NCBI RefSeq assembly: GCF_000231055.2
Contig: NZ_CM001466.1
Location: 3,408,368-3,472,367 of the forward strand
Direction: 5' to 3'
DNA length: 64,000 bases
Source of the DNA: Saccharomonospora azurea NA-128
GTDB lineage: Bacteria > Actinomycetota > Actinomycetes > Mycobacteriales > Pseudonocardiaceae
The notes below the pieces were generated by a model. It saw only the letters and a list, made by a program, of their open reading frames with translations. It did no database searches and was not told the DNA's origin. Both the position numbers and the translations under genes were made by a program. Positions 2,022-49,914 of this stretch are shown in pieces. Numbering within the stretch: position 1 is the first letter of the stretch; every line of letters starts with the position of its first letter.

Positions 2022-2045
2022 TCGCGTTTCGCCCGCAGAACGTGG
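2022..2045 (-). repeat. Palindromic repeat copy
   Basis: One copy of the GCGTTTCGCGGGC-type palindrome, in the orientation with the CCCGC centre (GCGTTTCGCCCGCAGAAC). It lies between the convergent genes eccB and mycP. Confidence 0.8.
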
Positions 2046-2110
2046 CTCGGTGAACACGGGTAAGATCCCGTCCCTTTCGTAAGACCGCAGGGACTCCCGT
2101 CACTGTGTTT

Positions 2111-2134
2111 CCGCGTTCTGCCCGCAGAACGCGG
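2111..2134 (-). repeat. Palindromic repeat copy
   Basis: Arms CCGCGTTCTG and CAGAACGCGG are perfectly complementary around CCCG, so this copy is a near-perfect palindrome. The outer flanks CACTG and CAGTG extend the pairing. Confidence 0.85.
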
Positions 2135-2240
2135 CAGTGCGAATTCTTCTCGGGTCGGCTGCCGCCGTTCTGTTGTGTGGTGGGCGCTGACTCGAAGGCG
2201 ATGCGGCTGGAGCATCCTGGTTTGGTCTGTGCGTAAACAG

Positions 2241-2300
2241 CATTCAGCCCGCTAAACGCGGGCTTCGAGAGCAAGCACGTTCAGCGGGCTAAATGCGGGA
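2241..2300. repeat. Inverted pair of variant palindromic repeats
   Basis: Two variants with the central CTAAAC/CTAAAT form (2241-2262 and 2279-2300) face each other as an inverted repeat. The first also forms a small hairpin by itself, AGCCCGC and GCGGGCT around TAAAC (2246-2264). The pair ends 18 bp from the mycP stop codon and may act as its terminator. Confidence 0.75.
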
Positions 2301-2318
2301 AGTGTGTCAGGCGGGGAG

Positions 2319-3848
2319 TCAGGGGCGGGCGGGGTCTTCTTCGTTCTTGCGGTTGCGGCGAATGGTGTGGACCACGAAGAGCGTGATTCCCAGGGCGGCG
2401 AGTGCGCCACCCGATCCCACCAGCGCCACCACGATCGGTGTCCAGTTGCGGTTCGCGGCGGGTGGCATGTCCGAGGGCAGGACTTCAGCTTTCGCCGGCG
2501 GAATGTTCTCCTCGGCGGGCACCGTGGCCGTCAACGCTGCCATGGGATCGATGACGCCGTAGCCGACGAAGTTGTCCCGGCCGCCCTTCGCTGCGGGGTG
2601 CTGCGCCGTGAACTTGATCCGGTGCATGACTCCGTGGGCGTCGAGGTCCGGGTACTTCGCACGCACAAGAGCAGCCAGGCCTGCGACGTACGGTGCGGCG
2701 AAGCTGGTGCCCTTGATCTCCTGTGCCTCACCGCCGTCGATCATCATGTTGGCCAGGCCGTCCGAACCCTGCGCGGGGTCGAGGGAAATGATCCCGGTGC
2801 CCGGTGCGGCCACGCTGACCCACGGGCCGTGCATGCTGAATTCCGCGACTCCGCCGGTGTCGTCGATGCCCGCAACGGACAAGACGTCGTCGGCGAACCA
2901 CGGCGGGGTCACGATCGTCGTCGGTTTCTCCGCCAGCGCCTGACTGTTCTGTTCGCAGTTCGTGTTGTCCGATACGTTGCCGGCCGCCGACACGACCACG
3001 GCGTCCTTGGTGTTGACCGCGTAGTCGATGGCGGCCTGCAGGGCCCGCTCGTCCGGCAACATCTCGCTACTGCCGGGACGGCAGTTGTTGATCGAGATAT
3101 TGATGACCTGGGCTCCGGCGTCGGCCGCGTGCACGATTGCCTTCGCGAGCGTCCCGAGCGTTCCCGCTCCCTCACTGCCCTGGGTGCGACTGTCCTGGGA
3201 CGGGCCTGGGTTGCTGGGTGCGCCTCCGCTGGCCGCGCCACCGTTGTCGGCCGAGTAGTTCTGGCTCGACTGCCTGATCGACAGGATCTGCACGTCAGGT
3301 GCGACGCCGATGAACCCGATGTGGTCCGGTGTGTCCGCAGCGATGATGCCCGCGACTTCGGTGCCGTGGCCGTCGCAGTCCTCGAGTCCCTTGTGCTCGC
3401 GTTTCACGTAGTCGGCGACGCCTTCGACGCCGTTCTTGAAGTACGCGTGCTTCCGGACTCCGGTGTCGATCACCGCCACCTTCACGGGCTTGCCGGTGTC
3501 GGTGGAGACGCCAACGGCACCCGTGGTGGAGCGCATGAGCGAGTGAACCTCGTCGATGCGCAGATAGCGCTGGCCCCACGGTGCGTTCTGGATCTCGTCG
3601 GTGTACTCGAGATCCTTCGTCACGCACTCGATCTTTTTCCCGTACTTCTTGTCCGGTTGACCGTCCGCCTGCGGCCGCGCGCTTGTGTCCACCGGCGGTG
3701 GCGCGGCGGCGTAGCTGCCGCTGTTGTCGGCGCCGGGCGTGTCCTCCTGCGCCAACGCGGGCACCGGTGCCAGTGCCGTCCCGGCCACGCCGATGGCGGC
3801 GGCGAGCGCCAATGCCCTGTGTTGTCTCATCGTCCGGGCCGAACGCAC
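2319..3848 (-). CDS. mycP: MycP, mycosin-type subtilisin protease of ESX-4
   Basis: Mycosins are membrane-anchored serine proteases that process substrates of, and stabilise, ESX systems. I start at GTG 3848 because GAGGGGG lies 5 bp upstream; a longer frame to 3875 would place that site inside the gene. The 509-residue protein has a signal peptide (ALALAAAIGVAGTALA, cut near PALAQE). The subtilisin triad is visible: Asp128 in VAVIDTG, His161 in DGHGTEVAGI and Ser382 in GTSFAAPYVAG, with oxyanion Asn291 in AAGN. A C-terminal membrane helix (ALVGSGGALAALGITLFVV) precedes a basic tail. It is downstream of eccD with a 37-bp gap, probably one operon. Confidence 0.95.
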   Translation of the reverse strand: MRSARTMRQHRALALAAAIGVAGTALAPVPALAQEDTPGADNSGSYAAAPPPVDTSARPQADGQPDKKYGKKIECVTKDLEYTDEIQNAPWGQRYLRIDEVHSLMRSTTGAVGVSTDTGKPVKVAVIDTGVRKHAYFKNGVEGVADYVKREHKGLEDCDGHGTEVAGIIAADTPDHIGFIGVAPDVQILSIRQSSQNYSADNGGAASGGAPSNPGPSQDSRTQGSEGAGTLGTLAKAIVHAADAGAQVINISINNCRPGSSEMLPDERALQAAIDYAVNTKDAVVVSAAGNVSDNTNCEQNSQALAEKPTTIVTPPWFADDVLSVAGIDDTGGVAEFSMHGPWVSVAAPGTGIISLDPAQGSDGLANMMIDGGEAQEIKGTSFAAPYVAGLAALVRAKYPDLDAHGVMHRIKFTAQHPAAKGGRDNFVGYGVIDPMAALTATVPAEENIPPAKAEVLPSDMPPAANRNWTPIVVALVGSGGALAALGITLFVVHTIRRNRKNEEDPARP

Positions 3849-3885
3849 GCGAACCCCCTCGAAGTCGTGCCGCATGTGGACTGGG

Positions 3886-5280
3886 TCACCCGATGTCGAG
3901 GTGGCGCAGCGTGGAGTAGAGCCCCATCACGGCGAGGGCCAGGGGAAGCACCGACGCGATGCAGGCCGCCTCGAAGATCTCCACCGCGCGCCGCATCGGC
4001 GGGGTGAACCGCTGGTTGGGGAACACCACGCCCAGCACGAGGGCACCGGCGCCGAGCAGCATGATGGTGCCGAACACCCAGAGCAGGCGCCCCTGAGCGT
4101 CCTCCATCCACATCCAGCCGAGCACGATGCCCGCGGCGGAGAAGAGGCCGGTGGTGAGCAGTGCGACGGCCTGGCTGCCGTTGGCGTAGGTGCGAGCACG
4201 CAGGAGCAGCACGAGCGTCGCGATGACCGCCGTGAGGATGCCCCAGATGTCTCCCGACGTCGCGGTGAGCATCGCGGCGATGGCGGTGACCGACCCGCTG
4301 CCGACGAGCAGGCCCGTCATGTAGTTGTGCGCCGCGCTCGTCTTGCGCTCGATGGAGGAGTAGTCGGGGTAGCCCGTGTCCTCCTTGAGTTCCTCGGCGG
4401 TGTTGGGAATGTGGGGCAGCGGCAGCTTCGCGAGCCAGATGGTGGCCCTCGGGAGCATCGAGATGCCCGCGAGTGCGACGGCGGCGGTCCCCGCCGCGAT
4501 GCCGGGTGCGGGGTGGGAGATCAGTGTGGCGACGAGGAAGGCGAGCACACCGAACACGCCTGCCGTGGCGGCGGCGATGAACACCGTGAGGCCGGCGCCC
4601 ATCAAGAGGATGCAGGCGGCGGCGACCACCACCACGAGGGCGCTGGACAACAGGAGGTTGGCCCGGATCGTCGCGTCCGGAACGATGTAGAAGCCGCTGA
4701 CGAACGCCAGAGGCAGACCACCGGCGGCGGCGATCACGACGCCGGTCGACTGGGCTTCGTAGGCCTTCACGAGAGTGGCGCCCACGGCCACGCAGGCGAT
4801 CGCGGCGACACCGGCCGTGATCGCGATGGCCAGACCGTTGCCGCCGTAGAGCGGGCCCGCGAAGAACAACGCCAACGCGGCGGTGAACAGCGCCAGTCCG
4901 CCGGCGATGTGGCCGATCCGCTGGGCGGTTTCCTTGGTCCACGGGCGGAAGCTGTCGGGTTCGGCTTCGGCGATCGCGTCGACGACGTCGTCGTACAGCG
5001 GAGGCGGCGGGTTCTCGTTCCGTTTCCGGAGTTGGAGCAGTTCGCCGTCGACGATGCCGAGCGACGCGAGTGTCCGGCTCGGATCGAGGGGAGCATCGCC
5101 CAACTTGGCCAGTGCCCAGCCGCCGTGGCGGGCGCCGCCGTCGGGGCTCACCTCTTTCGCCATCTCCAGCAACATGGGCATGAGGTCGGCCACCGCCACG
5201 TCGGCCGGAAGCGCGACATCGATGCGGGTTCGCGGCGCGACCACCGTGACCCTGCTGAAAACTGTCGTGCCCGTTGCCAC
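3886..5280 (-). CDS. eccD: EccD, ESX-4 polytopic membrane channel subunit
   Basis: EccD lines the ESX membrane complex. I start at GTG 5280, where a GGGGG-containing Shine-Dalgarno stretch sits about 8 bp upstream; the open frame continues to 5466 without support. The 464-residue protein starts with a ubiquitin-like YukD domain (about residues 1-95, [20 protein letters not shown] through GELLQLRKR). About 11 hydrophobic helices follow, from about residue 115 ([19 protein letters not shown]) to the C-terminus. It is divergent from eccC across about 220 bp that must hold both promoters, and co-directional with mycP. Confidence 0.95.
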
Positions 5281-5503
5281 CTTTTCGCCCCCTACCTGGA
5301 GATTTCGCCGCAGGGTGTTTATACCGCGTCGCGGAAACAACCCGCCTGCGGGCCGGTAACCTTCCCGAACCGGCCCCATGGTGTCGTGATGCCGCCCTAG
5401 TATTAACGCACCCGGGCCACGTGTGGGGGCAGTTCCGGCGAAAGTGCCGGTGCGTGCTTTCCTCACGGGCCGTCAGTCGCCGAGTCGAAGAGGGGTCCTT
5501 TCG

Positions 5504-8500
5504 GTGAGCACGCTGCAGTTCAAGCGGTCGCCAAGGCTGGCTGCGCCCCGTCCACCGGGTGGCGAGGTGCACCTCGAGCCGCCACCCGAGGTCCCGAGGA
5601 CGATCCCCGGCAACATCGTCATGAAGTTGATGCCGGTGGTCATGATCGTGGCCATGCTCGGCATGGTCGTCTTCATGTTCACCGCGAGTGAGCGGACACC
5701 GAGCCCGTTCATGCTGATGATGCCGCTGATGATGATGATGTCGATGGTCGGCATGTTCGCCGGCGGCGGCAAGGGCGGTCAGCAGAAGAAGGCCGAGATG
5801 AACGAGGACCGCAAGGACTATCTGCGGTACCTCGGGCAGATGCGGGATCGCGCCCGCGAAGCGATGATCGATCAGCGGGCGTCGCTGGAATGGGTCCATC
5901 CGGATCCGGACACGCTGTGGTCGATGGCGTCCACCCGGCGCATGTGGGAACGGCGCCAGAGCGACCAGGACTTCCTGCACCTCCGGGTGGGGCGGAGCTC
6001 CCACCGGCTGGCCACCCGCCTGGTGCCTCCGCAGACGGGCCCCGTCGACGAGCTGGAACCGATCGCGACGCTGGCGCTGCGCCGGTTCGTGCGCGCACAC
6101 TCGATCGTCCCCGACCTGCCCACCCAGATCACGTTGCGCGGTTTCGCGGCCGTCGCCATGCAGGGCGACAAGACGCTCACGCGCGGTCTGACGAGAGCCA
6201 TGCTCGCGCAGCTCGTGACCTTCCACAGCCCCGACGACGTGCTCATCGGCGTCGCCACCACGGGCCGGTCCAAGGAGGAGTGGGAGTGGGCCAAGTGGTT
6301 GCCCCACGTCCAGCACCCGAGCCTGTCCGACGGCATCGGCCAGCTGCGCATGATGAGCGGCTCGCTCGCTCAGATCGAGCACTGGCTCGACGAGGAGTTG
6401 CGTGACCGCCAGCGGTTCTCCCGCAACGCCACGCCCGCTCCGGACCAGCCGCATGTCGTGATCGTGCTCGACGACGCGGAGGTCACCGGCGAGGAGCAGA
6501 TCCTCCTGGAGGAGGGGCTCGTCGGGGTCACGCTCATCGACCTGTCCGACTCGATCGGCAACCTCGCCGCTCGCCGAGGACTCCGCCTCGTCGTGGAGGA
6601 GGAACGTCTGGGTGCCCGCAGTGCCGGCGGCGTGGAGTGGTTCGGCCGTCCCGACACGCTGAGCGTCGTCGAACTGGAAGCCCTCGCTCGCAAGCTTTCG
6701 CCTTATCGCATGAGCACGGGTGCCGCGGAGGACAGCGAGGAGCAACCGCTGCTGTCGAACCCGTCGCTGCTCGAACTGCTGGGCATTCCCGGCGACCCGA
6801 TGACGTTCGACGTGCAGCAGGCATGGCGGCCCCGGCCGATTCGCGACCGCTACCGCGTGCCGTTCGGCGTCGGCGAGTACGGCCAGCCGGTGGAGCTGGA
6901 CATCAAGGAAGCGGCCATGGAGGGCATGGGCCCCCACGGTCTGTGCATCGGTGCGACCGGTTCCGGTAAGTCCGAGTTCCTCCGCACGCTCGTGCTCGGG
7001 ATGTTGGCCACGCACTCGTCGACGACGCTGAACTTCGTGCTCGTCGACTTCAAGGGTGGTGCCACGTTCCTCGGTCTGGACAAGGCGCCGCACGTCTCCG
7101 CGGTGATCACCAACCTCGCCGACGAGGTCACCCTGGTCGACCGTATGAAGGACGCCCTCGCCGGCGAGATGAACCGGCGGCAGGAGGCGTTGAAGAACGG
7201 CGGCAACTTCAAGAACGTCTGGGAGTACGAGAAGGCGCGTGAGAACGGTGCCGACCTCGACCCGCTGCCGGCGTTGTTCATCGTCGTCGACGAGTTTTCC
7301 GAGCTGCTGGCGGCGAAGCCCGACTTCATCGACCTGTTCGTCGCCATCGGACGTCTGGGCCGGTCGCTGCAGATGCACATGCTCCTCGCCTCGCAGCGCC
7401 TCGAGGAAGGCAAGCTGCGCGGGCTGGACTCGCACCTGTCCTACCGCATCGGTCTGAAGACGTTCTCCGCCGCGGAGTCGCGGGCCGCGATCGGTGTGCC
7501 CGACGCGTTCGAACTGCCGTCCGTGCCCGGTGGTGGATACCTGAAGTACGACACCTCGACCCTCGTGCGGTTCAAGGCGTCGTACGTGTCCGGCCCCTAC
7601 CGGCCCGCCGGCATCAAGACCGCTGCTCCCGGCGCGAAGGTCGTGCGCGCGGACAAGCGGCCGCAGCTGTTCGTCCCCGACTTCGTGGAGCTGCCGAAGG
7701 AACCGGAGCCGGAACCCGAGCCCGTCGAGCAGCCGCAGCAGCCGCAGTCCGAGGAAGCGGTCGAACCGAGCGAGCTCGACGTCATCGTCGGCAGGCTCGT
7801 CGGCCAGGGTCCGCCCGCCCACGAGGTGTGGCTGCCGCCGCTGAAGGAACCGAACTCGCTCGACACCCTGTTGCCGAACCTCAACCCCACCGAGGACCGG
7901 GGCCTGTCGCCGGTCGGGTTCTTCGGCAACGGTCGACTGCAGGTTCCGCTGGGCATCGTCGACCGGCCGTACGAGCAGCGTCGCGACCCGCTGTGGGCGG
8001 ACTTCGCGGGCGGTGCCGGCCACGGTGTCATCGTGGGCGGTCCCCAGTCGGGCAAGTCCACGATGCTGCGTACGTTGATCATGTCGATGGCGTTGACCCA
8101 CACGCCGGAGGAAGCGCAGTTCTACTGCATCGACCTCGGTGGTGGAACGCTCGCCGCGTTGAACGGCCTGCCGCACGTGGGTGGTGTCGCCGTCGCCCGG
8201 CGGGAGCCGGACAAGGCGCGCCGTATCGTCGCTGAGCTGACGACGTTGGTCAACGAACGGGAAGCGCGGTTCGGTGCGCTCGGCGTCGACTCGATGAACG
8301 ACTTCCGTAACCGGAAGCGGCGCGGGGACATCACGGCCGAGCAGGACCCGTTCGGCGACGCGTTCCTCGTCGTCGACGGCTGGCGGGCACTGCGCGACGA
8401 CTTCGACGAGCTGGAGCCGCAGATCACCAAGCTCGCCGTGCAGGGTCTGACCTACGGCGTGCACGTGATCATCTCGTCGAACCGCTGGGCCGACATCCGT

Positions 8501-9514: not shown

Positions 9515-9521
9515 CGACGTT

Positions 9522-9636: not shown

Positions 9637-11613
9637 GTGACGCTGCGGGTGGCGGTGGACTTCGGGACATCGAGCACCTGTGTCGTCGCTTCGGTTAACG
9701 GTCGCGAACCTCAGGTCGTGGTCGTCGACAGCCAGCCGATCATGCCGTCCGCGGTGTACGCGGCGCCGGACGGCACGCTCTTCGTCGGGCAGGAGGCCGA
9801 GCGGCAGGCCGCCGTCGACCCTTCGCGTTTCGAACCGCATCCGAAGCGGCGCATCGACGAGGGGGAGTTGCTGCTCGGCGACAGAGTGCTGAGTGTCGTC
9901 GATGTCGTCCACGCCGTGTTGCGGCGCGCGGTGTCGGAGGCGCGGCGTCTCGCCGGCAACGTCGAGGTGTCGTTGCTGGTGCTGACGCATCCCGCCGAAT
10001 GGGGTGCGCTGCGCACGCGCTTGTTGCGTCAGGCCGCGGGACGACTCGCCCACGAGGTGGCGTTGGTGCCCGAGCCGGTCGCGGCGGCGGTGTACCACGC
10101 GTCGACCTTCGCGCCGACCGAGGTGAATCAGGAGCGGACCGTCGAGTTCAGCGGCCACCCCGGCGACACGATGGCGGTGCTCGACCTGGGTGGCGGCACG
10201 GTCGACGTCAGCGTGGTGCGCCGCGCCCAGATGAACGGGCAGAACCGCTTCGAGGTGCTGGCGACCCGCGGCGACGGCACGTTCGGTGGCGCGGACATCG
10301 ACCAGGCGCTGCTCGAGCACGTCGGTTCTCTCGTGTCCCAGGCCGACGTTGATGCCTGGGAGCAGCTGGTGCAGGGGCGCGAACTGGCGGACCGGCGACG
10401 TCGACGGGTGTTGCGCCAGGACGTCCGAGGCGCCAAGGAGACGTTGTCCCGCCACGCCTATACCGACGTGCCGATGCCGCCGCCGTTCGCGGACGCCCAC
10501 GTGACGCGTGAGGACCTGGAACGGCTCGTGCGGACACCGCTGGGGCGGGCCGCCGAGCTGACGAAAGGCACGATCGAGGAAGCGGGGCTGCGTCCCCAGC
10601 AGTTGACGGCCATCTTCCTCGTCGGCGGGTCGAGCCGGATTCCGATGGTGTCGAGGCTCGTGCACGAGCGGACGGGAGTGGTCCCGACCACTCTCGATCA
10701 GCCGGAGACCGTCGTGGCCCGTGGTGCGCTGCGCGCGGTGCAGGTGCTGCCGGACCGCACGGGAGTGCTGCCGGGCACGATGGCTGCGCGATCGGCGGGT
10801 GCGAGGACGTCGCGTGGTGACCACCGCACCGAAGTGGTGGTGAAGCCGAGCATGCCGCCGCGTGCCACGATCCCGCCGCCCGGTCGACCGGTGATGTCGC
10901 CGCCGGGTGGACTTCGTGCCGCAGCCCCGCTCGCCTCGCCGGGAGGCGCCGCACCACTCGGGCCGCCGTCGGGCTCGGTGCCGTTCGCTCCGCCGTCACC
11001 GCCGCGTGGGCAGCCGTTGCCCGTGCAGTCCCCAGAGCAGCCGACGTCGCAGGCGGGTTCGCGACGGCGACGGCACCGAGTGATCATCGCGGCGATCGTG
11101 ACCGTGGTGGCACTCGTGGCCACGGCGGTCGCACTGACTCTCGCGATTGCCGAGGGGGGTGACGAGCAGGGGGCGGAGGGGCGCACCTACGCGCAGTACT
11201 CGTACAAGTTCGTCGCCCCGTCGGACTGGACGCAGACCGCCGACAACGTCGAGGCCCGCCAGGTCGTGGTGAAGCCGCAGGAGGCGCAGAACGCCGCCGA
11301 CGACGATCTCGTTGTGGTCCAGGAGATCGTCCTGCCGTACGACGGGGAGGCGCAACGACAGCGTTTAGCCCGCGAACTGCGGGAACTGACCGGTGCGACG
11401 CCCGACGTGTACTCCGACTTCTCGGAGCACTACGAGTACGCGGGCCGCGATGTCATCCACTACCAGGAGGACAAGCCGGCTGCCACGGTGCACTGGTACG
11501 TCCTCGCGCGCGGCACCGCCCAGGTGAGCGTCGGCTGTCAGGAGGCGCAGGCGCCGACGCGGGTCCGCACCGCGTGCGAACAGATCGTCCGGACCCTCGA
11601 ATTCACCAACTGA
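9637..11613 (+). CDS. Hsp70-like actin-fold protein with type VII secretion-associated C-terminal domain (Rv3446c-like)
   Basis: The N-terminal about 375 residues are a DnaK/actin-like ATPase fold: phosphate-1 motif VAVDFGTSSTCV (residues 5-16), VPEPVAAAV, phosphate-2 motif AVLDLGGGTVDVSVV and adenosine motif IFLVGGSSRIPMV. A Pro-rich linker follows, then a basic stretch and a membrane helix (HRVIIAAIVTVVALVATAVA, about residues 487-506). The last about 140 residues resemble the C-terminal domain of Rv3446c-family type VII secretion-associated proteins. It lies between eccC and esxU, where M. tuberculosis has Rv3446c, so it probably serves ESX-4. Its biochemical role is not known. A diverged palindromic repeat lies in the coding sequence at 11360-11382. 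GTG 9637 is preceded by GGGAG. Confidence 0.88.
   Translation: MTLRVAVDFGTSSTCVVASVNGREPQVVVVDSQPIMPSAVYAAPDGTLFVGQEAERQAAVDPSRFEPHPKRRIDEGELLLGDRVLSVVDVVHAVLRRAVSEARRLAGNVEVSLLVLTHPAEWGALRTRLLRQAAGRLAHEVALVPEPVAAAVYHASTFAPTEVNQERTVEFSGHPGDTMAVLDLGGGTVDVSVVRRAQMNGQNRFEVLATRGDGTFGGADIDQALLEHVGSLVSQADVDAWEQLVQGRELADRRRRRVLRQDVRGAKETLSRHAYTDVPMPPPFADAHVTREDLERLVRTPLGRAAELTKGTIEEAGLRPQQLTAIFLVGGSSRIPMVSRLVHERTGVVPTTLDQPETVVARGALRAVQVLPDRTGVLPGTMAARSAGARTSRGDHRTEVVVKPSMPPRATIPPPGRPVMSPPGGLRAAAPLASPGGAAPLGPPSGSVPFAPPSPPRGQPLPVQSPEQPTSQAGSRRRRHRVIIAAIVTVVALVATAVALTLAIAEGGDEQGAEGRTYAQYSYKFVAPSDWTQTADNVEARQVVVKPQEAQNAADDDLVVVQEIVLPYDGEAQRQRLARELRELTGATPDVYSDFSEHYEYAGRDVIHYQEDKPAATVHWYVLARGTAQVSVGCQEAQAPTRVRTACEQIVRTLEFTN
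11360..11382 (-). repeat. Diverged palindromic repeat inside the Hsp70-like gene
   Basis: AGCGTTTAGCCCGCGAACTG matches the repeat family within the coding sequence and is read as QRLARELR. It may be chance similarity or an old in-frame copy. Confidence 0.45.
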
Positions 11614-11624
11614 CACCGGCCCTC

Positions 11625-11650
11625 ACCGCGTTTCGCAGGCAGAACGCGGT
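11625..11650 (+). repeat. Palindromic repeat copy between the Hsp70-like gene and esxU
   Basis: Perfect 8-bp arms ACCGCGTT and AACGCGGT around TCGCAGGCAG, 12 bp after the stop of the Hsp70-like gene. It could form the 3' hairpin of that transcript. Confidence 0.85.
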
Positions 11651-15225: not shown

Positions 15226-15251
15226 ACCGCGTTGTGTGGGGAGAACGCGGT
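15226..15251. repeat. Degenerate palindromic repeat copy upstream of glmM
   Basis: The arms ACCGCGTT and AACGCGGT are perfect, but the centre (GTGTGGGGAG) is changed from the family form. Arms intact with a mutated centre suggest that the ability to pair is what is kept. Confidence 0.6.
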
Positions 15252-21062: not shown

Positions 21063-21119
21063 CCGCGTTTCGCGGGCGAACTGCGGAATGGTGACCGCGT
21101 TCTGCCCGCGAAACGCGGT
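21063..21119. repeat. Two opposed palindromic repeat copies upstream of glmS
   Basis: Copy 21063-21086 has the CGGGC centre and copy 21094-21119 the CCCGC centre, so they lie head-to-head 8 bp apart. The second has perfect arms ACCGCGTT and AACGCGGT. They lie in the divergent region between the hydrolase gene and glmS, about 95 bp before the glmS start. Confidence 0.85.
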
Positions 21120-25365: not shown

Positions 25366-25513
25366 GACCGCATTTCGCCCGCGAAACGCGGTCCGTGGTG
25401 CCGCGCCGGGCGCGTTTCGCGGGCAGAACGCTGTCGAGCGCGTGGGTGCGCGTTTCGCGGGCTAAACGCGGTTGGGGGTCCGCCGGGCCACGTTTCGCGG
25501 GCTGAACGCGGTT
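25366..25513. repeat. Cluster of four palindromic repeats between the SGNH hydrolase gene and xylB
   Basis: Copies lie at 25366-25393 (CCCGC centre), 25410-25433, 25448-25472 (CTAAAC form) and 25488-25513 (CTGAAC form). The last three point the same way, with cores 38 and 40 bp apart. The cluster fills most of the divergent promoter region between 25279 and 25587. Confidence 0.88.
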
Positions 25514-29215: not shown

Positions 29216-29692
29216 GTGACGCAGGTGAGTGTGGAGCTGCCGACACCCGACGACGCCATGGAGTTCGGACGGGTGTTGGGCAGGCTGTTGCGGGCGGGTG
29301 ACCTGGTGTTGCTGGCCGGTCCGCTCGGGGCGGGCAAGACCACGATGACCCGGGGCATCGCCGACGGCATGGGGGTGTCGGGCCGGGTCAGCTCGCCGAC
29401 GTTCGTGCTCGCGCGTGTGCATCCGGCGAGGGAGGCGGGGGTGCCGCTCGTGCACGTCGACGCGTACCGGCTGGGCGGCGACCTGGCGCAGCTCGACGAC
29501 CTGGACCTCGACACCGAGCTCGAACGGGCGGCGCTCGTGGTGGAGTGGGGCGAGGGCGTGGCCGAGCGGCTGGTCGAGGACGACTACCTGGTGGTGCGCC
29601 TCGACCGCCGTCCCGACGACGTGCGTGTGGTGGAGCTCGAACCCCATGGCGCGTGGGTGGCGCGCGTGTCCGAGGCGCGTTTAGCGGGCTGA
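29216..29692 (+). CDS. tsaE: tRNA t6A biosynthesis ATPase TsaE
   Basis: TsaE is the ATPase partner of TsaB/TsaD in making N6-threonylcarbamoyladenosine at position 37 of ANN-decoding tRNAs. 158 residues with P-loop GPLGAGKTT (residues 35-43), VSSPTFVL (switch) and HVDAYRL, ALVVEWGEGV. GTG 29216 has AGGAGGGA upstream. Oddly, its last codons and TGA stop come from a palindromic repeat (29675-29700), giving the tail EARLAG. The usual neighbour tsaB is displaced by about 3.3 kb. Confidence 0.95.
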   Translation: MTQVSVELPTPDDAMEFGRVLGRLLRAGDLVLLAGPLGAGKTTMTRGIADGMGVSGRVSSPTFVLARVHPAREAGVPLVHVDAYRLGGDLAQLDDLDLDTELERAALVVEWGEGVAERLVEDDYLVVRLDRRPDDVRVVELEPHGAWVARVSEARLAG

Positions 29693-29700
29693 ACGCGGTT
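29675..29700 (+). repeat. Palindromic repeat forming the end of tsaE
   Basis: A GCGTTTAGCGGGCTGAACGC variant overlaps the tsaE 3' end. Its central CTGAAC supplies the TGA stop codon at 29690-29692. Confidence 0.85.
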
Positions 29701-29724: not shown

Positions 29725-29752
29725 GGCCGCGTTTCGCGGGCAGAACGCGGTC
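29725..29752 (+). repeat. Palindromic repeat at the 3' end of tetR
   Basis: Arms CCGCGTT and AACGCGG with the standard TCGCGGGCAG centre. The right edge overlaps the tetR stop codon (minus strand, 29751-29753). With the previous copy it fills the 58-bp gap between convergent tsaE and tetR. Confidence 0.88.
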
Positions 29753-32746: not shown

Positions 32747-32935
32747 CCGCGTTTCGCGGGCAGAACGCGGTCGGGCTCGGCTGCGGTGGCGCGTTTCGCG
32801 GGCAAAATGCGGTCGGCGGGCGGTGGCGCGTTTCGCGGGCGGAACGCGATTCGCCTCGGCCGTGGGGCCACGTTCCGCGGGCGGACGGCGGTCGGCCCTC
32901 CGGCGCCGACCGCGTTTCGCGGGCAGAACGCGGTC
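32745..32935 (+). repeat. Five-copy tandem array of palindromic repeats
   Basis: Copies start near 32745, 32789, 32826, 32868 and 32908, all in the same orientation. Distances between cores are 42, 37, 42 and 42 bp. The first and last copies are identical over 28 bp and have perfect 9-bp arms (GACCGCGTT, AACGCGGTC); the middle ones are diverged. The array fills the gap between the DUF5701-like gene and tsaB. Confidence 0.92.
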
Positions 32936-39551: not shown

Positions 39552-39850
39552 TTTCGTGACCGCCTCCGATATCCGGCACCACGCGGCCGGATTGTGCAGT
39601 TGTCGTAGTGCGACTACTCCATTTGGTGCAACGGCCGTAACGCTAGAAGCCCATCCGGCGAATGTTCAAGGCCTGTCAGTGGAATCAGCCGATAGGCGTG
39701 TCCGTCTACTGTGATCGGTGACACGGCGCCCAAAAATGGTGCAATCGTTTCACTCGGGCGAGTTTCACCAGGTGATCCAGTTGTATTTCGAGGATGAAAA
39801 GGGCCCTACCCGCTGTGCTGTCGTGCACTCGTCCGGGTCACGATGAGGGC

Positions 39851-40798
39851 ATGCCGATCGTCGAAAAAGTGCTGCGAACCGCCGCGTTCGGTGGAAGCGC
39901 CTCCGTGCCGGAGGGGGGCCAGGAGTCGGATGAGCCTCCGGGAGCCCTTCGGCGGTCCCCGTCGTCCGCGCACGCCCCGCAGGTGCGGCAGTGGCTGGAG
40001 GCGGTGGTGCACGGCGCGTGCGGTCGGTATGCCGCGGCGGCGGCGCTGCTGGAGCCGTTGACCCGCCACCGTGTCGCGGTGGTGGCCTCGCTGGCGGCGT
40101 CGGCCCTCGCGTCGCACCGGCGGCAGCTCGGTGGGCATGCCGCCGCCCTGCGGCTCGACGGTCTGGCCCTGCGCAGGGCGATCGAGGCCGGCGAGGTCCG
40201 GGAGGCGGGCGGGGCGGCCTCAGCAGGGTGGGAGCGTGACGATCCGGATGGCCTGGACGTTTCCGGCGCACTCGCCGACGCCTTGATCGGGCTGGCCGCC
40301 GACCATCTCGGACTGGGCCGGCTGGTCGAGGCGGAGGTGCTCTTGAGGAGAGCCGCCGCGGTGGTGGCCGTCGGTGGGGGCTGGCGTGCCGAGGTGCGAC
40401 TCGGGTGGGTGCGCGCGGAGCTGTCCCTCGCGTCCGGGCGGCCGTCCGACAGCGTTTCGCCCGCGGAACGCGCTCTGGCTGCCTCGCGGGAAAAACGGGC
40501 GGGCCGGCACGCCGCCAAGTCGGGTCTGATCCTCGGGGCGGCGTTGGCGGCTCGTCGCGAAACGGGGGACGGCGAGCGCGCGCGGGAGCTCGTGGAATCG
40601 GCATTGGCGTCGGCCGAGCAAAACGGATGGCGGTCACTGGTGTGGCCCGCTCACGCACTTCTTGCCGATCTCGAAACGGAACACGAACAGGCAGTTTGGA
40701 ACCGCTCCAAAACTACTGATGAGTTGAACGCGTTGCTCGCGTCCACCGATCCGGTGGGACGGCGGTTGGCCCTCGACTCGCCATGGGTGCCGATCTAG
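39851..40798 (+). CDS. Alanine-rich helical-repeat (TPR-like) protein of unknown function
   Basis: 315 residues, rich in Ala and Arg, predicted all-helical with TPR-like pairs (YAAAAALLEPLTRHRVAVVA, LVEAEVLLRRAAAVVAVGG, GERARELVESALASAEQNG). There is no signal or membrane helix. I choose ATG 39851 (GAGGGC just upstream); ATG 39794 is possible. It lies between whiB and bldM, where actinobacterial genomes often carry an uncharacterised TPR-type protein. A repeat copy lies in the coding region at 40451. Function unknown. Confidence 0.72.
   Translation: MPIVEKVLRTAAFGGSASVPEGGQESDEPPGALRRSPSSAHAPQVRQWLEAVVHGACGRYAAAAALLEPLTRHRVAVVASLAASALASHRRQLGGHAAALRLDGLALRRAIEAGEVREAGGAASAGWERDDPDGLDVSGALADALIGLAADHLGLGRLVEAEVLLRRAAAVVAVGGGWRAEVRLGWVRAELSLASGRPSDSVSPAERALAASREKRAGRHAAKSGLILGAALAARRETGDGERARELVESALASAEQNGWRSLVWPAHALLADLETEHEQAVWNRSKTTDELNALLASTDPVGRRLALDSPWVPI
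40451..40474 (-). repeat. Palindromic repeat inside the helical-repeat gene
   Basis: AGCG and CGCT outer arms with a TTTCGCCCGCGGAA centre match the family; it is read in frame as SVSPAERAL. Confidence 0.6.
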
Positions 40799-41845: not shown

Positions 41846-42418
41846 ATGGCAAACGTGGGGGATGGGCTGGACGAGTCGGTCGCCGCCGCTGTCGAGGGAG
41901 ATCCTCAAGCGGTCGAGCGGCTACTGGCCGCTATCCGTCCCCTGGTGGTGCGGTATTGCCGCGCCAGAGTTGGCAGGCAGGAGCGCACGTTCGCTTCGGC
42001 AGACGACGTCGCCCAGGAGGTGTGTCTCGCGGTGCTCACGGCATTGCCTTCGTACCGTGACCAGGGCCGCCCCTTTCTGGCGTTCGTCTACGGAATCGCC
42101 CAGCACAAGGTCGCCGACGCGCATCGTGCCGCGTCCCGCAACCGCGCGGAGCCGGTCGCCGAGGTCCCCGACGAGGTCGAGGGGGACGTCGGCCCCGAGC
42201 AGCGCGCTCTGCAGGGTGAGTTGAACGAACGGATGTCGCAGTTGTTGCAGGTTCTGCCGGACAAACAACGCGAGATCGTGGTGTTGCGGGTCGTCGTCGG
42301 GTTGTCCGCGGAGGAGACCGCGGACGCCGTCGGCTCGACGCCCGGGGCGGTCAGGGTCGCCCAGCATCGCGCCCTCGCGCGGCTACGCAAGGCGCTGGCC
42401 GCTGAGGAGGTGGTCTGA
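41846..42418 (+). CDS. sigD: RNA polymerase sigma factor SigD (ECF-type)
   Basis: 190 residues with region 2 (VVRYCRARVG, DDVAQEVCLAVLTALPSYRD, FLAFVYGIAQHKVADAHR) and region 4 (LPDKQREIVVLRVVVGLSAE, STPGAVRVAQHRALARLRKAL). It is the SigD subfamily found beside guaB and bldM in actinobacteria. I start at ATG 41846 (MANVGDGLDESVAAAV). It shares one base with rsdA (TGATG), so sigma and anti-sigma are co-translated. Confidence 0.92.
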   Translation: MANVGDGLDESVAAAVEGDPQAVERLLAAIRPLVVRYCRARVGRQERTFASADDVAQEVCLAVLTALPSYRDQGRPFLAFVYGIAQHKVADAHRAASRNRAEPVAEVPDEVEGDVGPEQRALQGELNERMSQLLQVLPDKQREIVVLRVVVGLSAEETADAVGSTPGAVRVAQHRALARLRKALAAEEVV

Positions 42419-43470: not shown

Positions 43471-43493
43471 GCCGGTCGAGGCCCCACAGACGA

Positions 43494-43523
43494 CGAACGC
43501 CCTCCGCGAGGGGAGGGCGTTCG
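43494..43523. terminator. Bidirectional terminator between rsdA and the DUF5319 gene
   Basis: CGAACGCCCTCC and GGAGGGCGTTCG form a 12-bp perfect stem in the 66-bp convergent gap. Confidence 0.8.
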
Positions 43524-43536
43524 GGCGACGCGACCG

Positions 43537-43923
43537 TCAGTGGGCGTTCTCGGTGGCGGTGATCCCGTCGGCGAACCCGCGGCAGTAGTCCCAGGTGACG
43601 TAGAGCGCGGGGTTCGGGTCGAAGGCCGGTTCGTGGGGGCGCATGTGCCCGTCGGCCAGCAGTTGTTCGAGACTCGCCCGGAGCAGATGCCAGTCGTGGT
43701 AGTGAGGCTGCTCGCATTCGCCGCAGTCCACGACGATGCCCCTCACTCCCCGCGGCTCCAGCAGTGCCTGGTAGACCGTGAGGTCCGACAGGTCCGCGAG
43801 GAGCTCGGAGCGCTCTTCGGGGCTCATCGGTTCGGCAGCGGGCTCATCGAGCGCCGCGAACTCCCTGGCTGGGTCGTTCGGGTCGTCGGCGAACGGATCC
43901 GGAGGCAACACTTCGTGTGGCAC
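43537..43923 (-). CDS. DUF5319 family protein
   Basis: 128 residues, acidic and soluble. A Pro/Asp-rich start (PDPFADDPNDPAREFAAL) leads to VVDCGECEQPHYHDWHLLRA, where CxxC and HxHxxH lie close together and could bind a metal. WDYCRGFADGI follows. It corresponds in position to Rv3412, next to guaB. Function unknown. It is divergent from guaB with 108 bp between starts. Confidence 0.85.
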   Translation of the reverse strand: MPHEVLPPDPFADDPNDPAREFAALDEPAAEPMSPEERSELLADLSDLTVYQALLEPRGVRGIVVDCGECEQPHYHDWHLLRASLEQLLADGHMRPHEPAFDPNPALYVTWDYCRGFADGITATENAH

Positions 43924-43977
43924 GATCCAGCACGGTACCGGGCCGTCCCCGGGTTGCGTCCAGATACCATCGATTAA

Positions 43978-45573
<1,596 letters not shown>

Positions 45574-45628
45574 TTCGCCTCTCACCTCGACGTCGGCCTC
45601 AGGGCCGAAGAAACAGAAGGGATTTCAC

Positions 45629-46762
45629 GTGCGGGATCTGGTCGAGATCGGCATGGGCCGGACAGCCCGGCGGTCGTACGGCTTCGACGACATCGAGATC
45701 GTGCCGTCGCGGCGCACGCGGTCGTCGAAGGTCGTCTCCACCGCCTGGCAGATCGACGCGTACCGATTCGACCTGCCGCTGGTGACCCACCCCACCGACG
45801 CCGTGGTCTCGCCGGAGACGGCGGTGTCGATCGGCAAGCTCGGTGGGCTGGCCGTGCTCAACGCCGAGGGTGTGTGGGCGCGGCACGCCGACGCGGACAA
45901 GGCCCTCGCGCGGGTCGTGGACGCCGCTCGCCGGGGTGCCGACTGGGGCGAGCTGGGTGCGCTGCTGCAGGAGTTGCACTCGGCGCCGATCCAGAACGGG
46001 CTGCTCACCGAGGCGATCCGCACGGTGCGCGACTCCGGTGTGACGGTGGCGGCCCGGGTCAGCCCCCAGCACGCCGCCGAGCTGACTCCGGTGTTGCTGA
46101 GCGCGGGGGTCGAGATCCTGGTCGTGCAGGGCACGATCGTGTCGGCCGAGCACGTGGCACGCGACGGCGACCCGCTGAACCTCAAGGAGTTCATCTCCAA
46201 CCTGGACGTGCCGGTGATCGCGGGCGGTGTCAGCGACTACCGCACGGCCATGCACCTGATGCGCACGGGCGCGGCGGGTGTGATCGTCGGACACGGTCAC
46301 ACGCCCGGCGTGACCAGCACGGACAAGGTGCTCGGCATCGGCGTGCCGATGGCGACCGCGGTGATCGACGCGGCGGCGGCGCGCCGGGACTACCTCGACG
46401 AGACCGGGGGCCGGTACGTGCACGTGCTGGCCGACGGCGGGGTGACCTGCAGTGGTGACATCGCGAAGGCCGTGGCCTGTGGGGCCGACGCCGTGATGCT
46501 CGGTGCGCCGCTCGCGGCCACTACGGAGTCGCCGGGCAAGGGGCTGTACTGGACGGCGGCGGCCGCGCACCCGTCGTTGCCGCGGTCCCGGGTGGCCGAG
46601 GGGCCGAGCCGCGACGTGGATCTGGAGACGCTGCTGCACGGGCCGTCGTCGGATCCGGAGGGTGTGGTGAACCTGTTCGGTGCGCTGCGCCGTGCGCTGG
46701 CGAAGACGGGTTACTCCGACCTGAAGGAGTTCCAGAAGGTCGGGCTCGCGGTTCGCGCCTGA
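45629..46762 (+). CDS. guaB3: GuaB3, IMPDH/GMP reductase family protein
   Basis: 377 residues, no CBS domains. The barrel is clear (YGFDDIEIVPSRRTR, VIAGGVSDYRTAMHLMRTGA, LADGGVTCSGDIAKAVACGA, DAVMLGAPLAATTESPGKG). The catalytic loop reads GHTPGVTSTDKVLGIGVP, where IMPDH has [17 protein letters not shown]; the Cys is not at the aligned place. So it is unlikely to be an IMPDH. GuaB3 of cyanobacteria has been reported to act as GMP reductase; whether that holds here is open. GTG 45629 follows AGAAGGGA. Confidence 0.88.
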   Translation: MRDLVEIGMGRTARRSYGFDDIEIVPSRRTRSSKVVSTAWQIDAYRFDLPLVTHPTDAVVSPETAVSIGKLGGLAVLNAEGVWARHADADKALARVVDAARRGADWGELGALLQELHSAPIQNGLLTEAIRTVRDSGVTVAARVSPQHAAELTPVLLSAGVEILVVQGTIVSAEHVARDGDPLNLKEFISNLDVPVIAGGVSDYRTAMHLMRTGAAGVIVGHGHTPGVTSTDKVLGIGVPMATAVIDAAAARRDYLDETGGRYVHVLADGGVTCSGDIAKAVACGADAVMLGAPLAATTESPGKGLYWTAAAAHPSLPRSRVAEGPSRDVDLETLLHGPSSDPEGVVNLFGALRRALAKTGYSDLKEFQKVGLAVRA

Positions 46763-46828
46763 GCCGATCCCAACTCGCGAGTAACTTACCTCTGGTCAGA
46801 ACAGGGGTGCCCGGTCTACGCTCTGCCT

Positions 46829-48553
46829 GTGACTGGGCGTAACACTCACGGTGTGGACCGCGACGTGGACTACGACGTCGTGGTCGTCGGGTCTGGTTTC
46901 GGCGGCAGCGTGGCCGCACTCAGGTTGACGGAGAAGGGCTACCGCGTCGCGGTGGTGGAGGCCGGTCGCCGGTTCGCCGACGACGAGTTCGCCTCGACGT
47001 CGTGGGATCTCCGCCGTTACCTGTGGGCGCCGAGCGTCGGCTGCTTCGGGATCCAGCGGGTGCACCTGCTCAAGGACGTGATGGTGCTGGCGGGCGCGGG
47101 CGTCGGAGGCGGCTCGCTCGTCTACGCCAACACGCTGTACCGGCCGTTGCGGCCGTTCTACACCGACCGGCAGTGGGCCCACATCACCGACTGGGAGTCG
47201 GAACTCGCGCCGCACTACGACCAGGCCGGCCGGATGCTCGGCGTGGTCACCAACCCCACGGTGACCCCGTCGGACGAGGTCATGAAGAAGGTCGCCGCCG
47301 ACATGGGGGTGGCCGACACCTACCGGCCCACACCGGTGGGCGTGTACTTCGGTACACCGGGCGAGCGGGTGTCCGATCCCTACTTCGGGGGCGTGGGCCC
47401 CGACCGGGTCGGCTGCACCGAGTGCGGTGCGTGCATGACGGGATGCCGGGTCGGTGCCAAGAACACGCTCGTGAAGAACTACCTCTACCTGGCCGAACAG
47501 GGTGGGGCGAAGGTGATCCCGCTGACCACGGTGACGGCCGTGCGTCCGCGCGGCGACGGCACGTACGAGGTGGACCTCCGCAAGACGGGGACGGTGTCGC
47601 GCCGGTTCCGGCACACGCTGACCGCGGCCCACGTGGTCTTCGCCGCGGGAACCTGGGGCACCCAGCGTCTGCTGCACGACATGCGTGACAAGGGTGTGCT
47701 GCCGCGCCTGTCCTCGCGACTGGGTGAGCTGACGCGCACCAACTCCGAGGCCATCGTCGGCGCCGGTCGGACCAGCGTCGACCCGGACCGCGACTTCAGC
47801 CGCGGCGTGGCCATCACGTCGTCGTTCCATCCCGACCCGAACACCCACATCGAGCCCGTGCGCTACGGCAAGGGCAGCAACGCCATGAGCCTCCTGCAGA
47901 CCGTCGCCACCGACGGCGCGTCGGAGGTGTCTCGGTGGAGGCAGGTGCTGCGCTTCGTCCGCAAGCACCCGCTGCAGACGCTCAAGCTGTTGAACGGGTA
48001 CCGCTGGAGCGAGCGAACGGTGATCCTGCTGGTGATGCAGAGTCTCGACAACTCGATCACCACCTACACGAAGAAGGGCTGGTTCGGCCGTCGCAGGTAC
48101 ACGTCGCGGCAGGGGCACGGCGCGCCGAACCCGACGTTCATCCCGGCGGGTCACGAGGCGAACCAGCGGACGGCCGAGCACATCGGCGGCATCGCGGGCG
48201 GCACGTGGGGCGAGGTGTTCGACATCCCGCTCACCGCGCACTTCATCGGCGGTGCGCCGATCGGCACGGACCCCGACAGCGGGGTGATCGACCCGTATCA
48301 CCGGGTGTTCCACTACCCGAACCTGCACGTCGTCGACGGCACCGCGATCACGGCCAACCTGGGCGTGAACCCGTCGCTGACCATCGCCGCGCAGGCGGAA
48401 CGCGCGTTCTCGTTGTGGCCCAACAAGGGTGAGGCCGACATGCGGCCGAAGCAGGGGGAGCCGTACCGGCGTCTCGACCCGGTGCCGCCGAAGGCGCCCG
48501 CCGTGCCGGCGCACGCCCCGGCCGCGTTGCGTTCGGCACGCGTGCGCGACTAG
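46829..48553 (+). CDS. choD: GMC-family oxidoreductase, cholesterol oxidase-like (ChoD type)
   Basis: 574 residues. An FAD-binding GxGxxG (VVVVGSGFGGSVAALRL, residues 17-33) is followed by the GMC motif AGAGVGGGSLVYAN. A Cys-rich stretch GCTECGACMTGCRVGAKNT comes next, then HFIGGAPIGTDPDSGV and the C-terminal LGVNPSLTIAAQAER. It matches the guaB3-linked Rv3409c-type protein, whose true substrate is debated despite the name. No signal peptide. GTG 46829 has only a weak ribosome site, and TACGCT lies 6 bp upstream, so a leaderless message is possible. Its stop shares CTAG with the next gene. Confidence 0.85.
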   Translation: MTGRNTHGVDRDVDYDVVVVGSGFGGSVAALRLTEKGYRVAVVEAGRRFADDEFASTSWDLRRYLWAPSVGCFGIQRVHLLKDVMVLAGAGVGGGSLVYANTLYRPLRPFYTDRQWAHITDWESELAPHYDQAGRMLGVVTNPTVTPSDEVMKKVAADMGVADTYRPTPVGVYFGTPGERVSDPYFGGVGPDRVGCTECGACMTGCRVGAKNTLVKNYLYLAEQGGAKVIPLTTVTAVRPRGDGTYEVDLRKTGTVSRRFRHTLTAAHVVFAAGTWGTQRLLHDMRDKGVLPRLSSRLGELTRTNSEAIVGAGRTSVDPDRDFSRGVAITSSFHPDPNTHIEPVRYGKGSNAMSLLQTVATDGASEVSRWRQVLRFVRKHPLQTLKLLNGYRWSERTVILLVMQSLDNSITTYTKKGWFGRRRYTSRQGHGAPNPTFIPAGHEANQRTAEHIGGIAGGTWGEVFDIPLTAHFIGGAPIGTDPDSGVIDPYHRVFHYPNLHVVDGTAITANLGVNPSLTIAAQAERAFSLWPNKGEADMRPKQGEPYRRLDPVPPKAPAVPAHAPAALRSARVRD

Positions 48554-49914
48554 GGGCGCCCGCCCACGGCCAGCACCGTGACGACCTCGCGGCGGAGCGC
48601 GCGGGCGGCGTCGCGGACGTCGCCGGGACGTCGCCGGGGAACGTCGCCGACGACGACTTGGCCGGCCGTCGTCCGTTCCGCCGCGTGCTGTGCGAGGTCG
48701 AGGTCGCGCGTGAACACGCCGACGGCTCGTGGTGCGGGTCCGGGCGGGCACAGTCCCGCCGCCAGGGCGGTGTCGAGCGTGTCCGCCACCGACACCGTGA
48801 CGACGGGCCCCAGGGCGACGCGCTCCGGTAGCGCCTCGACGGGCAGGCCCGTGACCAGGGTGGGGTGCACGACGGTGCCCGTCCGTTCACCCCCGAGCGG
48901 GACGTCGGCGCCTCGCGATCGCGCCTCGGTGACCCAGGCCAGGGTGCGGCGGGCGGCGTCCTCGTCGGGCAACGCCCCGACCGCGACCGCGGCGTCGTAG
49001 GGATCGCCGACACGGTGTGCGGACAGCGCGGCGGTGAGGGCCTCCACGAAGCGTTCCGCGCTCGTCGCGTGCACCACGACGTCGCGCACAGGCAGGTGTG
49101 ATCGGCCCTCCCAGTCGACGACGGAGGCCGCGACGGCCGCGGCCGCGTCGGACACGTCGGGCCAGTCGGGCAGCACGGTGACCCGCGAGCGCCCGGCGGG
49201 TGTGGTGATCGGGCACAGGCGGGGATCGCCGACGAGCAGGTCGGGTGCGCGGGCGGGCAGCACCGAGAACACACCGGCGGGCAAGGCCGTCGTGGCGAGG
49301 ACGTCGGCGAGGGTCTCGGCGAGCGCGAGGGTCGACAGCGCGGCGCGGGGTGTGGGCACCACCACCACGGGCGTACCCACGGCGAGAGCCGCGCCGACCG
49401 CGACGGACGTGCTCGCCAGCGCACGATGCGGCGAGACGAGGCCGAGCGCGACTCCGCGCGGGACCTGCCGGGTGACCCGCACCGCAGGTCGGTCGGGGTG
49501 TCCCGGGGCGTCCGGGCCGTCCAGGTGGGCGCGGGACGACGTTTCGCCCGCGAAACGCGCCGCGTGCCGCAACGTCGCGACCGCGAGCCGCACCTCGGTG
49601 GCGGCGAGAGTCAGGGGCGCGGCGGCCTCGGCGGTGAGGAGCTCGGCGAACTCGTCGGCGCGGGACTCCACGGCCCGAGCGAGCCGGTCGAGCACGGCAG
49701 CGCGGGCGTGCGCGGGGACCGACCGCGTTTCGCCCGCGAAACGCGCGGCACCCGCCACGGCGCGTTCCACCTGCGCTGCGCTGGGGAGGGAGACGGTGGC
49801 GACCTCGGTGCCGTCGTAGGCGTGGCGGACGGGAGCGGTCTCCTCGCCGGGCTCCGGTCGTCCGCCGATCCACGCAGCCCGGGGGCGCGGTGTGACCGCC
49901 TCCATCGGCTCCAT
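48550..49914 (-). CDS. Degenerate aldehyde dehydrogenase-family protein lacking catalytic residues
   Basis: 454 residues with an ALDH-like fold: [60 protein letters not shown]. The FTGS nucleotide loop and ELGG catalytic Glu segment are missing by deletion ([19 protein letters not shown]). The FxNxGQxC Cys motif reads [13 protein letters not shown]. It cannot be a normal dehydrogenase. The gene is intact and GC3-rich, so it is probably a functional pseudoenzyme rather than a decayed gene. Two palindromic repeats are in frame (FAGETR, FAGETS). The start is uncertain (ATG 49914 or GTG 49935). Confidence 0.8.
49539..49560 (-). repeat. In-frame palindromic repeat in the ALDH-like gene (second copy in the protein)
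   Basis: ACGTTTCGCCCGCGAAACGC on the plus strand is read on the minus strand as ARFAGETSS (about residues 118-126). Confidence 0.85.
49721..49745 (-). repeat. In-frame palindromic repeat in the ALDH-like gene (first copy in the protein)
   Basis: GACCGCGTTTCGCCCGCGAA and the following ACGCG are read on the minus strand as ARFAGETRS (about residues 57-65). The two copies encode almost the same peptide. Confidence 0.9.

Follow-up and report, generated by a model that had tools for sequence, protein, structure and literature searches.

Why does one short palindrome recur about 23 times in 64 kb of an actinobacterial chromosome? The stretch in question, here called the window, comprises 64,000 nucleotides of Saccharomonospora azurea NA-128 (contig NZ_CM001466.1, positions 3,408,368 to 3,472,367; the genome is G000 below). 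An initial annotation of the window had listed 23 copies of a palindrome with a stop-free core and read them as a dispersed family behaving like repetitive extragenic palindromes (REP), bacterial interspersed mosaic elements (BIME) or miniature inverted-repeat transposable elements (MITE), with pairing of the arms seemingly under selection. A real, dispersed and mostly intergenic palindrome family is indeed present, but genome-wide spread of the REP or MITE type is not, the family being confined to one conserved chromosome segment. In our estimation there is about an even chance that the repeats are sites for a dimeric DNA-binding protein, one that would mark the transcription units of this segment or insulate them.

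The motif CGTTYNGCGGGCNRAACG, searched on either strand with up to two mismatches, recovers 22 of the 23 listed places in the window; the remaining one, at 15226, is a decayed copy with three mismatches that retains its outer arms. The unit conserved in S. azurea is about 28 bp long (GACCG-CGTTYNGC-GG-GCNRAACG-CGGTC), and an Amycolatopsis genome, G110, has different outer letters (CGATC on the right side). By inspection, the commonest S. azurea form is free of stops, as had been claimed, but TAG and TAA are present in CGTTTAGCGGGCTAAACG, the commonest Amycolatopsis form, and the stop codon of a called gene falls within some copies.

A chance origin of the repeats is excluded because the full 28-mer, with up to three mismatches, occurs seven times in the window and not once in 100 dinucleotide-preserving shuffles, and because the reversed pattern, used as a control, has no match in the whole genome (4,763,852 bp), where the motif itself has 27 places with at most one mismatch. 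Twenty-five of these 27 lie within 83 kb (3,375,220-3,458,110), or 1.7% of the chromosome. When the centre is left free, the exact matches in G000 number 20, all inside this segment, and one mismatch adds 16 places elsewhere, versus three for the reversed control; these 16 are presumably background. A 144-kb stretch of G000 containing the segment holds 25 copies with at most one mismatch and four with two, against none and two, respectively, in a 400-kb control stretch of the same chromosome. No comparable palindrome family stood out in a dyad search of this control and of a 120-kb stretch of G212, a repeat-free Amycolatopsis, and an Rfam search of the window gave no match at gathering score. 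Other over-represented dyads, for example, GTCCA-N3-TGGAC and GAAGG-N3-CCTTC, occur in the corresponding segments of the repeat-bearing Amycolatopsis genomes G110, G246 and G202.

The copies are not restricted to the window: the cluster begins 33 kb ahead of it in G000 and recurs in relatives. In gene order, the segment holds rpoC, genes whose size and order match those of ribosomal-protein genes, ESX-type secretion genes, rplM, rpsI, glmM, glmS, alr, tsaE, tsaB-like and tsaD genes, groEL, a sigma gene, an anti-sigma-D gene and guaB, and it ends just before guaA; the names given to genes ahead of the window (rpoB, map and infA among them), with the exception of rpoC and of the WXG100/PPE-like, EspC-like and YbaB-type genes downstream of it, are assigned from size and order. 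All 11 other Saccharomonospora genomes checked carry the motif, with 2 to 16 exact copies each. In the seven of these where rpoC was located, the copies start downstream of rpoC and end no more than about 94 kb from its start, with the exception of a pair in G004 and a single copy that G005 has on a different contig (G002, G006, G007 and G011, with rpoC not located, are outside this count). Among 297 genomes of the family, 34 carry at least three exact copies, and these belong to 9 of 46 genera. Of 25 Amycolatopsis genomes sampled, 11 have 18-52 copies, two have 3-5 and 12 have 0-1. There are no copies in 16 genomes from other families of the order, and viral contigs gave four stretches with one match each. 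Position relative to rpoC outside Saccharomonospora was determined in six genomes of Amycolatopsis and two further genera (g31, g32 and g60 in all, leaving out g34, g35, g37, g55 and g57), where 111 of 120 copies lie within 300 kb of rpoC: 37/39 in G246, 33/37 in G110, 16/18 in G202, 10/11 in G070, 10/10 in G102 and 5/5 in G041.

The distance from parB, used as a proxy for the origin, ranges from about 0.4 Mb in G000 (where the segment lies 0.41-0.49 Mb away in a 4.76-Mb genome) to about 1.8 Mb in G246, assuming a circular chromosome. We therefore reject a fixed distance from the origin and conclude that the repeat follows the segment. A few copies do lie outside it, in G004, G110, G202 and G246. 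In Amycolatopsis, such outside copies are found repeatedly at two orthologous positions (L142, L143 and their orthologues), of which one adjoins a PspC gene close to a second groEL and the other follows a DUF445 gene; G110 has one more, between moeA and a transporter gene. Two outside copies look like terminators of the ordinary kind, and that of G070 is intragenic. That the outlying pair in G004 moved along with a neighbouring gene is rejected, the amidase gene found there not being homologous to the G000 gene tested. Within G246, two sites are carried on a 3.7-kb piece of the segment (9046025-9049772) that lies about 170 kb from its place in G110, beside 663 bp identical to 8878540-8879202.

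Sites are retained at the same intergenes across genera while their flanks diverge. For intergenes of at least 150 bp, G000 and G070 have 8 with sites in both, 1 discordant and 22 without (p=1.1e-6), G000 and G110 have 5, 5 and 18 (p=0.0066), and G070 and G110 have 7, 3 and 20 (p=1.3e-4). Among the three Amycolatopsis genomes G110, G246 and G202, most copies are in the same intergene, with form, number and orientation changing. The mean identity of the 18-letter core at orthologous sites, computed from a per-letter table with sites of unaligned core dropped, is 0.91 for G110 versus G246 (47/63) and 0.88 versus G202 (46/63), and identity falls to 0.63-0.78 in flanks more than 10 bp away. Eleven of the 18 core letters reach an identity of 0.9 against G246 and eight against G202, the centre and some outer core letters being lower.

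This retention bears on the principal rival explanation, that the palindromes are a REP/BIME-like selfish or neutral repeat with no host function, spread within a single region by a copying enzyme or by template switching and tolerated at the ends of genes, which we hold to be possible but on balance improbable. Neutral copies would be expected to decay with their flanks, yet these do not, and the same intergenes are occupied over genera. Beyond 600 bp, copies lying farther apart are no less similar in the three Amycolatopsis genomes (r -0.02, 0.03 and -0.04) or in G003, G008 and G010, but a weak fall of similarity with distance in G070 and G000 favours local copying, and with no decay in six genomes and a weak trend in two, local spread from a founder copy is improbable rather than impossible. 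Such a repeat would also fit the small size and mostly intergenic position of the palindromes, their frequent occurrence as close or alternating pairs at the 3' ends of genes, array copy numbers that vary between species and a clean 30-bp gain of one site in G110 (8495792-8495890); this gain, the single case inspected for a MITE-type target-site duplication, shows no clear duplication. This rival is also favoured by cores of opposite orientation, seen at 12 of 45 scored sites against G246 and at 5 of 41 against G202, but flank identity reaches 0.7 at just 6 of these 17 sites, the orthology of the others being uncertain. At window position 25371-25388 and G110 position 8383323, the GG centre is reversed relative to the orthologous site of a related genome, with the flanks aligning. 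The transposase associated with REP elements (RAYT) does not track the family, in keeping with the initial annotation, which had linked none to it: the Y1 transposase domain (PF01797) is found in 3 of 17 repeat-bearing genomes and in none of four repeat-free ones, so that 14 bearing genomes lack it, and RAYT is rejected as a partner. G000 has just one Y1-type transposase frame, about 3 Mb away from the window (G000:C1:336339-336692), and such a frame is present in G003 and G008 too. A neutral repeat also leaves unexplained the helical phasing of the sites described below.

The sites in the window, with mismatches counted against the motif, are as follows.

2025..2042, minus strand: site in the convergent intergene between eccB and a subtilase gene, 0 mismatches
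2114..2131, minus strand: site in the same intergene, 0 mismatches
2241..2258, minus strand: site in the same intergene, 1 mismatch
2278..2295, plus strand: site in the same intergene, 1 mismatch; this intergene has 1-4 copies in 10/10 genomes compared
11362..11379, minus strand: weak site, possibly chance, within the 3' part of an HSP70-like gene, 2 mismatches
11629..11646, plus strand: site directly past the stop of the HSP70-like gene, 1 mismatch; retained in G003 with differing flanks
15230..15247, plus strand: decayed site between rpsI and glmM, 3 mismatches with the outer arms retained; 1-2 sites there in nine other genomes compared
21066..21083, plus strand: site in the intergene upstream of glmS, 2 mismatches; 1-3 sites there in 10/10 genomes compared
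21098..21115, minus strand: site in the intergene upstream of glmS, 0 mismatches
25371..25388, minus strand: site in the divergent intergene between GDSL lipase and FGGY kinase genes, 1 mismatch; core orientation unlike G003
25413..25430, plus strand: site in the GDSL lipase / FGGY kinase array, 42 bp from the preceding, 0 mismatches
25451..25468, plus strand: site in the same array, 38 bp from the preceding, 0 mismatches
25491..25508, plus strand: site in the same array, 40 bp from the preceding, 0 mismatches
29678..29695, plus strand: site at the tsaE 3' end, overlapping the end of the called gene, 0 mismatches
29730..29747, plus strand: site in the tsaE / tetR convergent intergene, 0 mismatches
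32750..32767, plus strand: site 1 of a five-site array between a DUF5701 gene and a TsaD-family (tsaB-like) gene, 0 mismatches
32792..32809, plus strand: site 2 of this array, 42 bp on, 1 mismatch
32829..32846, plus strand: site 3, 37 bp on, 0 mismatches
32871..32888, plus strand: diverged site 4, 42 bp on, 2 mismatches
32913..32930, plus strand: site 5, 42 bp on, 0 mismatches
40453..40470, minus strand: site in the 1.9-kb interval between groEL and a LuxR-type regulator gene, 0 mismatches
49540..49557, minus strand: site inside an aldehyde dehydrogenase-like gene, encoding RFAGET, 0 mismatches
49726..49743, minus strand: second site in this gene, 186 bp away and the last of the G000 cluster, 0 mismatches

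The interval between groEL and the LuxR-type gene has one or two sites in all seven genomes in which both genes map within 2.5 kb of each other, and the site at 40453..40470 may be coding, as it lies within an uncalled open frame (39794-40798). The two sites in the aldehyde dehydrogenase-like gene are in one frame, each encoding RFAGET, and G008 has RLAGET twice at equal spacing. Alignment of this protein with that of G070 has no gap at either site, and in alignments with G110 and G212 the second site adjoins a four-residue gap; these alignments hint that the two copies may have arisen without insertion of a whole unit.

Distances between neighbouring sites rise in increments of about 10 bp, one turn of DNA, so the sites are helically phased. 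Preferred spacings are 32, 42 and 52-53 bp for Saccharomonospora and 36-37, 44-47 and 55-57 bp for Amycolatopsis, alike for same and opposite orientations. After collapsing similar spacers (43/57, 32/76 and 10/13 pairs kept), the period is 9.7, 10.1 and 10.8 bp in three sets, the third being G070, and 6, 0 and 32 of 2000 jittered sets reach these periods, under a collapse threshold and jitter null of our own choosing. The sites also favour gene 3' ends. Counted per intergenic kb, they are densest between convergent genes in all 10 genomes and sparsest between divergent genes in 7 of the 10, and in tandem intergenes 137 of 178 sites are nearer the upstream stop; the departure from uniform placement has p <0.05 in 6 of 10 genomes (not in G000, G003, G004 or G009). 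The three Amycolatopsis genomes each have 8-12 of 75-91 sites that contain the stop codon of a called gene.

This placement speaks against a second alternative, unlikely in our judgement, in which the repeats are operators of an ordinary transcription factor whose regulon lies in this segment by chance. The half-site pattern, including a GTTTAGC half-site as in the KorA operator (PMC2680271), and the conservation of intergenic sites ahead of infA (a name based on gene order and size), glmM and glmS would suit operators, but density peaks in convergent intergenes and near stop codons, and the sites of the map-infA intergene lie at least 200 bp before infA, beyond promoter-like sequence recognised by eye. 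The neighbouring genes are, moreover, functionally unrelated, and there is no exact copy at other loci of the G000 chromosome.

If not the neighbouring genes, what do the sites themselves reveal of how they are read? Their arms vary largely independently, and the constraint is mainly on each half-site rather than on pairing. In pooled counts, which include orthologous copies from related genomes and are thus not independent, core positions 5/14 are Watson-Crick pairs in 42 of 73 copies from five Saccharomonospora genomes (38.3 expected) and in 69 of 84 from three Amycolatopsis genomes (68.7 expected), and positions 6/13 in Amycolatopsis pair in 74 of 84 (74.3 expected). The claim that pairing is selected is therefore mostly unsupported, with some pairing signal left in some sets. 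Strand orientation is random, and the GG centre has no strand preference: in tandem intergenes, 82 sites face one way and 84 the other, and the sense strand has 19 U.G and 26 C.A mismatches. Largely independent arms and random orientation together disfavour RNA hairpins at transcript ends, whether terminators or stabilisers of mRNA, an explanation that is largely contradicted and in our view very improbable. Palindromes near stop codons and the residual pairing signal are what hairpins would produce, and two of four folded copies are better than every shuffle, but the other two are no better than shuffles, C.A is as common as U.G, sites occur in divergent intergenes, and confinement to the segment is left unexplained.

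Half-sites of this kind point to proteins related to ParB, Noc, KorB or KorA as candidate binders. Each of 24 genomes has one strong chromosomal ParB; further ParB_N matches are found in 4 of 14 repeat-bearing genomes (one under the cut-off) and in 3 of 10 repeat-free ones, and a search with HTH_ParB in 21 genomes gave the same picture. The aligned DNA-binding region of ParB, compared by eye, shows no difference that tracks the repeat. A ParB, Noc or KorB-like binder is thus unsupported, since neither a paralogue nor a change in ParB tracks the repeat. KorA (PF16509) has no match over the cut-off in the same number of genomes, and with just three weak, sub-threshold matches a KorA-type binder is not supported either.

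The reading that we favour, sites for a dimeric DNA-binding protein, draws on two groups of observations. A dimeric protein acting on double-stranded DNA is suggested because the half-sites are largely independent, orientation is neutral and the sites are helically phased, and a role in marking a domain or insulating its parts because the sites are confined to the segment and prefer 3' ends. From these we infer the protein, its dimeric state and the insulation. A putative dimeric protein of Saccharomonospora, Amycolatopsis and related genera would bind the sites, each arm (CGTTYNGC) being read by one subunit. The sites, mostly at the 3' boundaries of transcription units, would be occupied singly or as arrays on one helix face, and as such arrays are phased on one face, bound dimers could interact. 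Bound sites would mark the RNA-polymerase/ribosomal-protein segment as a domain, as matS marks the terminus of Escherichia coli, and could insulate neighbouring transcription units by acting as a roadblock to read-through or to the spread of supercoils. More tentatively, and with somewhat less confidence than we have in the binding sites themselves, we propose that this is a new chromosome-domain system, in which a family-specific protein and helically phased sites would define and insulate a segment that is neither origin nor terminus, under selection since before the split of Saccharomonospora and Amycolatopsis.

Several observations weigh against this reading. G212 lacks the repeat yet retains the segment, and in this single repeat-free stretch compared no segment gene clearly tracks the repeat; no binder was found among the ParB, HTH_ParB and KorA families, other DNA-binding families not having been searched. 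Weakly suggestive as a tracker of the repeat is a block near rpoC, made up of WXG100-type genes and a YbaB-type gene, which has no match in the G212 stretch and is partly missing from that of G202. At L017:6910-13279, WXG100/PPE-like and EspC-like genes lie with a YbaB-type gene downstream of rpoC, adjoining the first site. Sites also occur in divergent intergenes and in coding regions, and a comparison with terminators gave no sign that sites replace them, the detector being over-strict and missing terminators visible by eye. Pairing is not wholly absent: positions 6/13 in Saccharomonospora are Watson-Crick in 34 of 73 copies (25.2 expected), a moderate excess; in sets with up to two mismatches, core positions 5-6 have z of 7.3, 5.1 and 2.7 in Amycolatopsis and about 2 in G004 and G070; and outer-arm pairing has z of 3.8 in G008, 2.2 in G004 and 2.5 in G003, with -3.0 in G246. 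The site gained in G110, further, has long perfect arms that copy the host flank. Because of the pairing excess in the two-mismatch sets and these arms mirroring the flank, a palindrome-forming process may act beside the half-site constraint, and a 28-bp site is in any case hard to reach by point mutation, so that a copying process is still needed.

If the proposed reading is true, a repeat locked to the ribosome/RNA-polymerase segment over several genera would offer a handle on how the most expressed genes of a chromosome are organised. The reading is directly testable, the sequence of the bait being known and repeat-free sister species such as G212 serving as natural controls.

How does the repeat compare with systems already described? 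As the initial annotation had it, no described family was met in the searches made. A literature text search for TTTAGCGGGCTAAA found nothing, though most subscription papers are outside its scope and absence in print is thus unproven; searches on related terms returned no title or opening of an abstract that names the repeat, and none of four taxa of interest appears in the main text of a REP survey (PMC3733652). REP and BIME elements are extragenic palindromes of 20-40 bp, often in paired or regularly spaced alternating copies (PMC2817692, PMC3733652), and close pairs or arrays between genes are found here too. Their high-copy spread over the whole genome is absent (25 of 27 copies in 83 kb of G000, 111 of 120 near rpoC in other genera), the arms here vary largely independently, and column counts over copies extended by 12 bp on each side (G000, G004, G070 and G110) show no conserved end resembling the GTAG/CGTC tag. 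Because most bearing genomes have no RAYT and both genome-wide spread and tag are lacking, the repeat is, as tested, not a member of this class.

With the operators of IncP plasmids the repeat shares the half-site TTTAGC: the KorA operator OA is GTTTAGCTAAAC and the KorB operator OB is TTTAGC(C/G)GCTAAA, the two lying 32/33 bp apart centre to centre (PMC2680271). The present sites differ in having a GG centre between the arms and in being chromosomal, with tens of copies, and they occur with no KorA match over the cut-off in 21 genomes (the KorB family model itself was not searched).

A likeness to parS is limited to the part of the copies whose arms begin with GTTTC. The parS consensus is GTTTCACGTGAAAC, from which the motif differs, and no ParB paralogue tracks the repeat; the first copy is about 0.41 Mb away from the exact parS and 0.29 Mb from a parS with one mismatch.

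The parallel drawn above is with matS, the 13-bp site of MatP, repeated 23 times within the Ter region of E. coli (PMC3116907). In E. coli and its kin, the terminus and origin regions are known to bear sequence-specific marks of a single domain (PMC3116907, PMC5441646). By this analogy, the repeat would work like matS/MatP, and as no binding protein has been found, we do not claim membership in that kind. Both are short palindromic motifs present in tens of copies and confined to one chromosome domain. The repeat described here differs in marking the RNA-polymerase/ribosomal-protein segment instead of Ter (in G000, judged by the 0.41-0.49 Mb that separate it from parB, the segment is not at a matS-like terminus location), in its longer site with a 2-bp centre, and in its helically phased arrays and preference for gene 3' ends.

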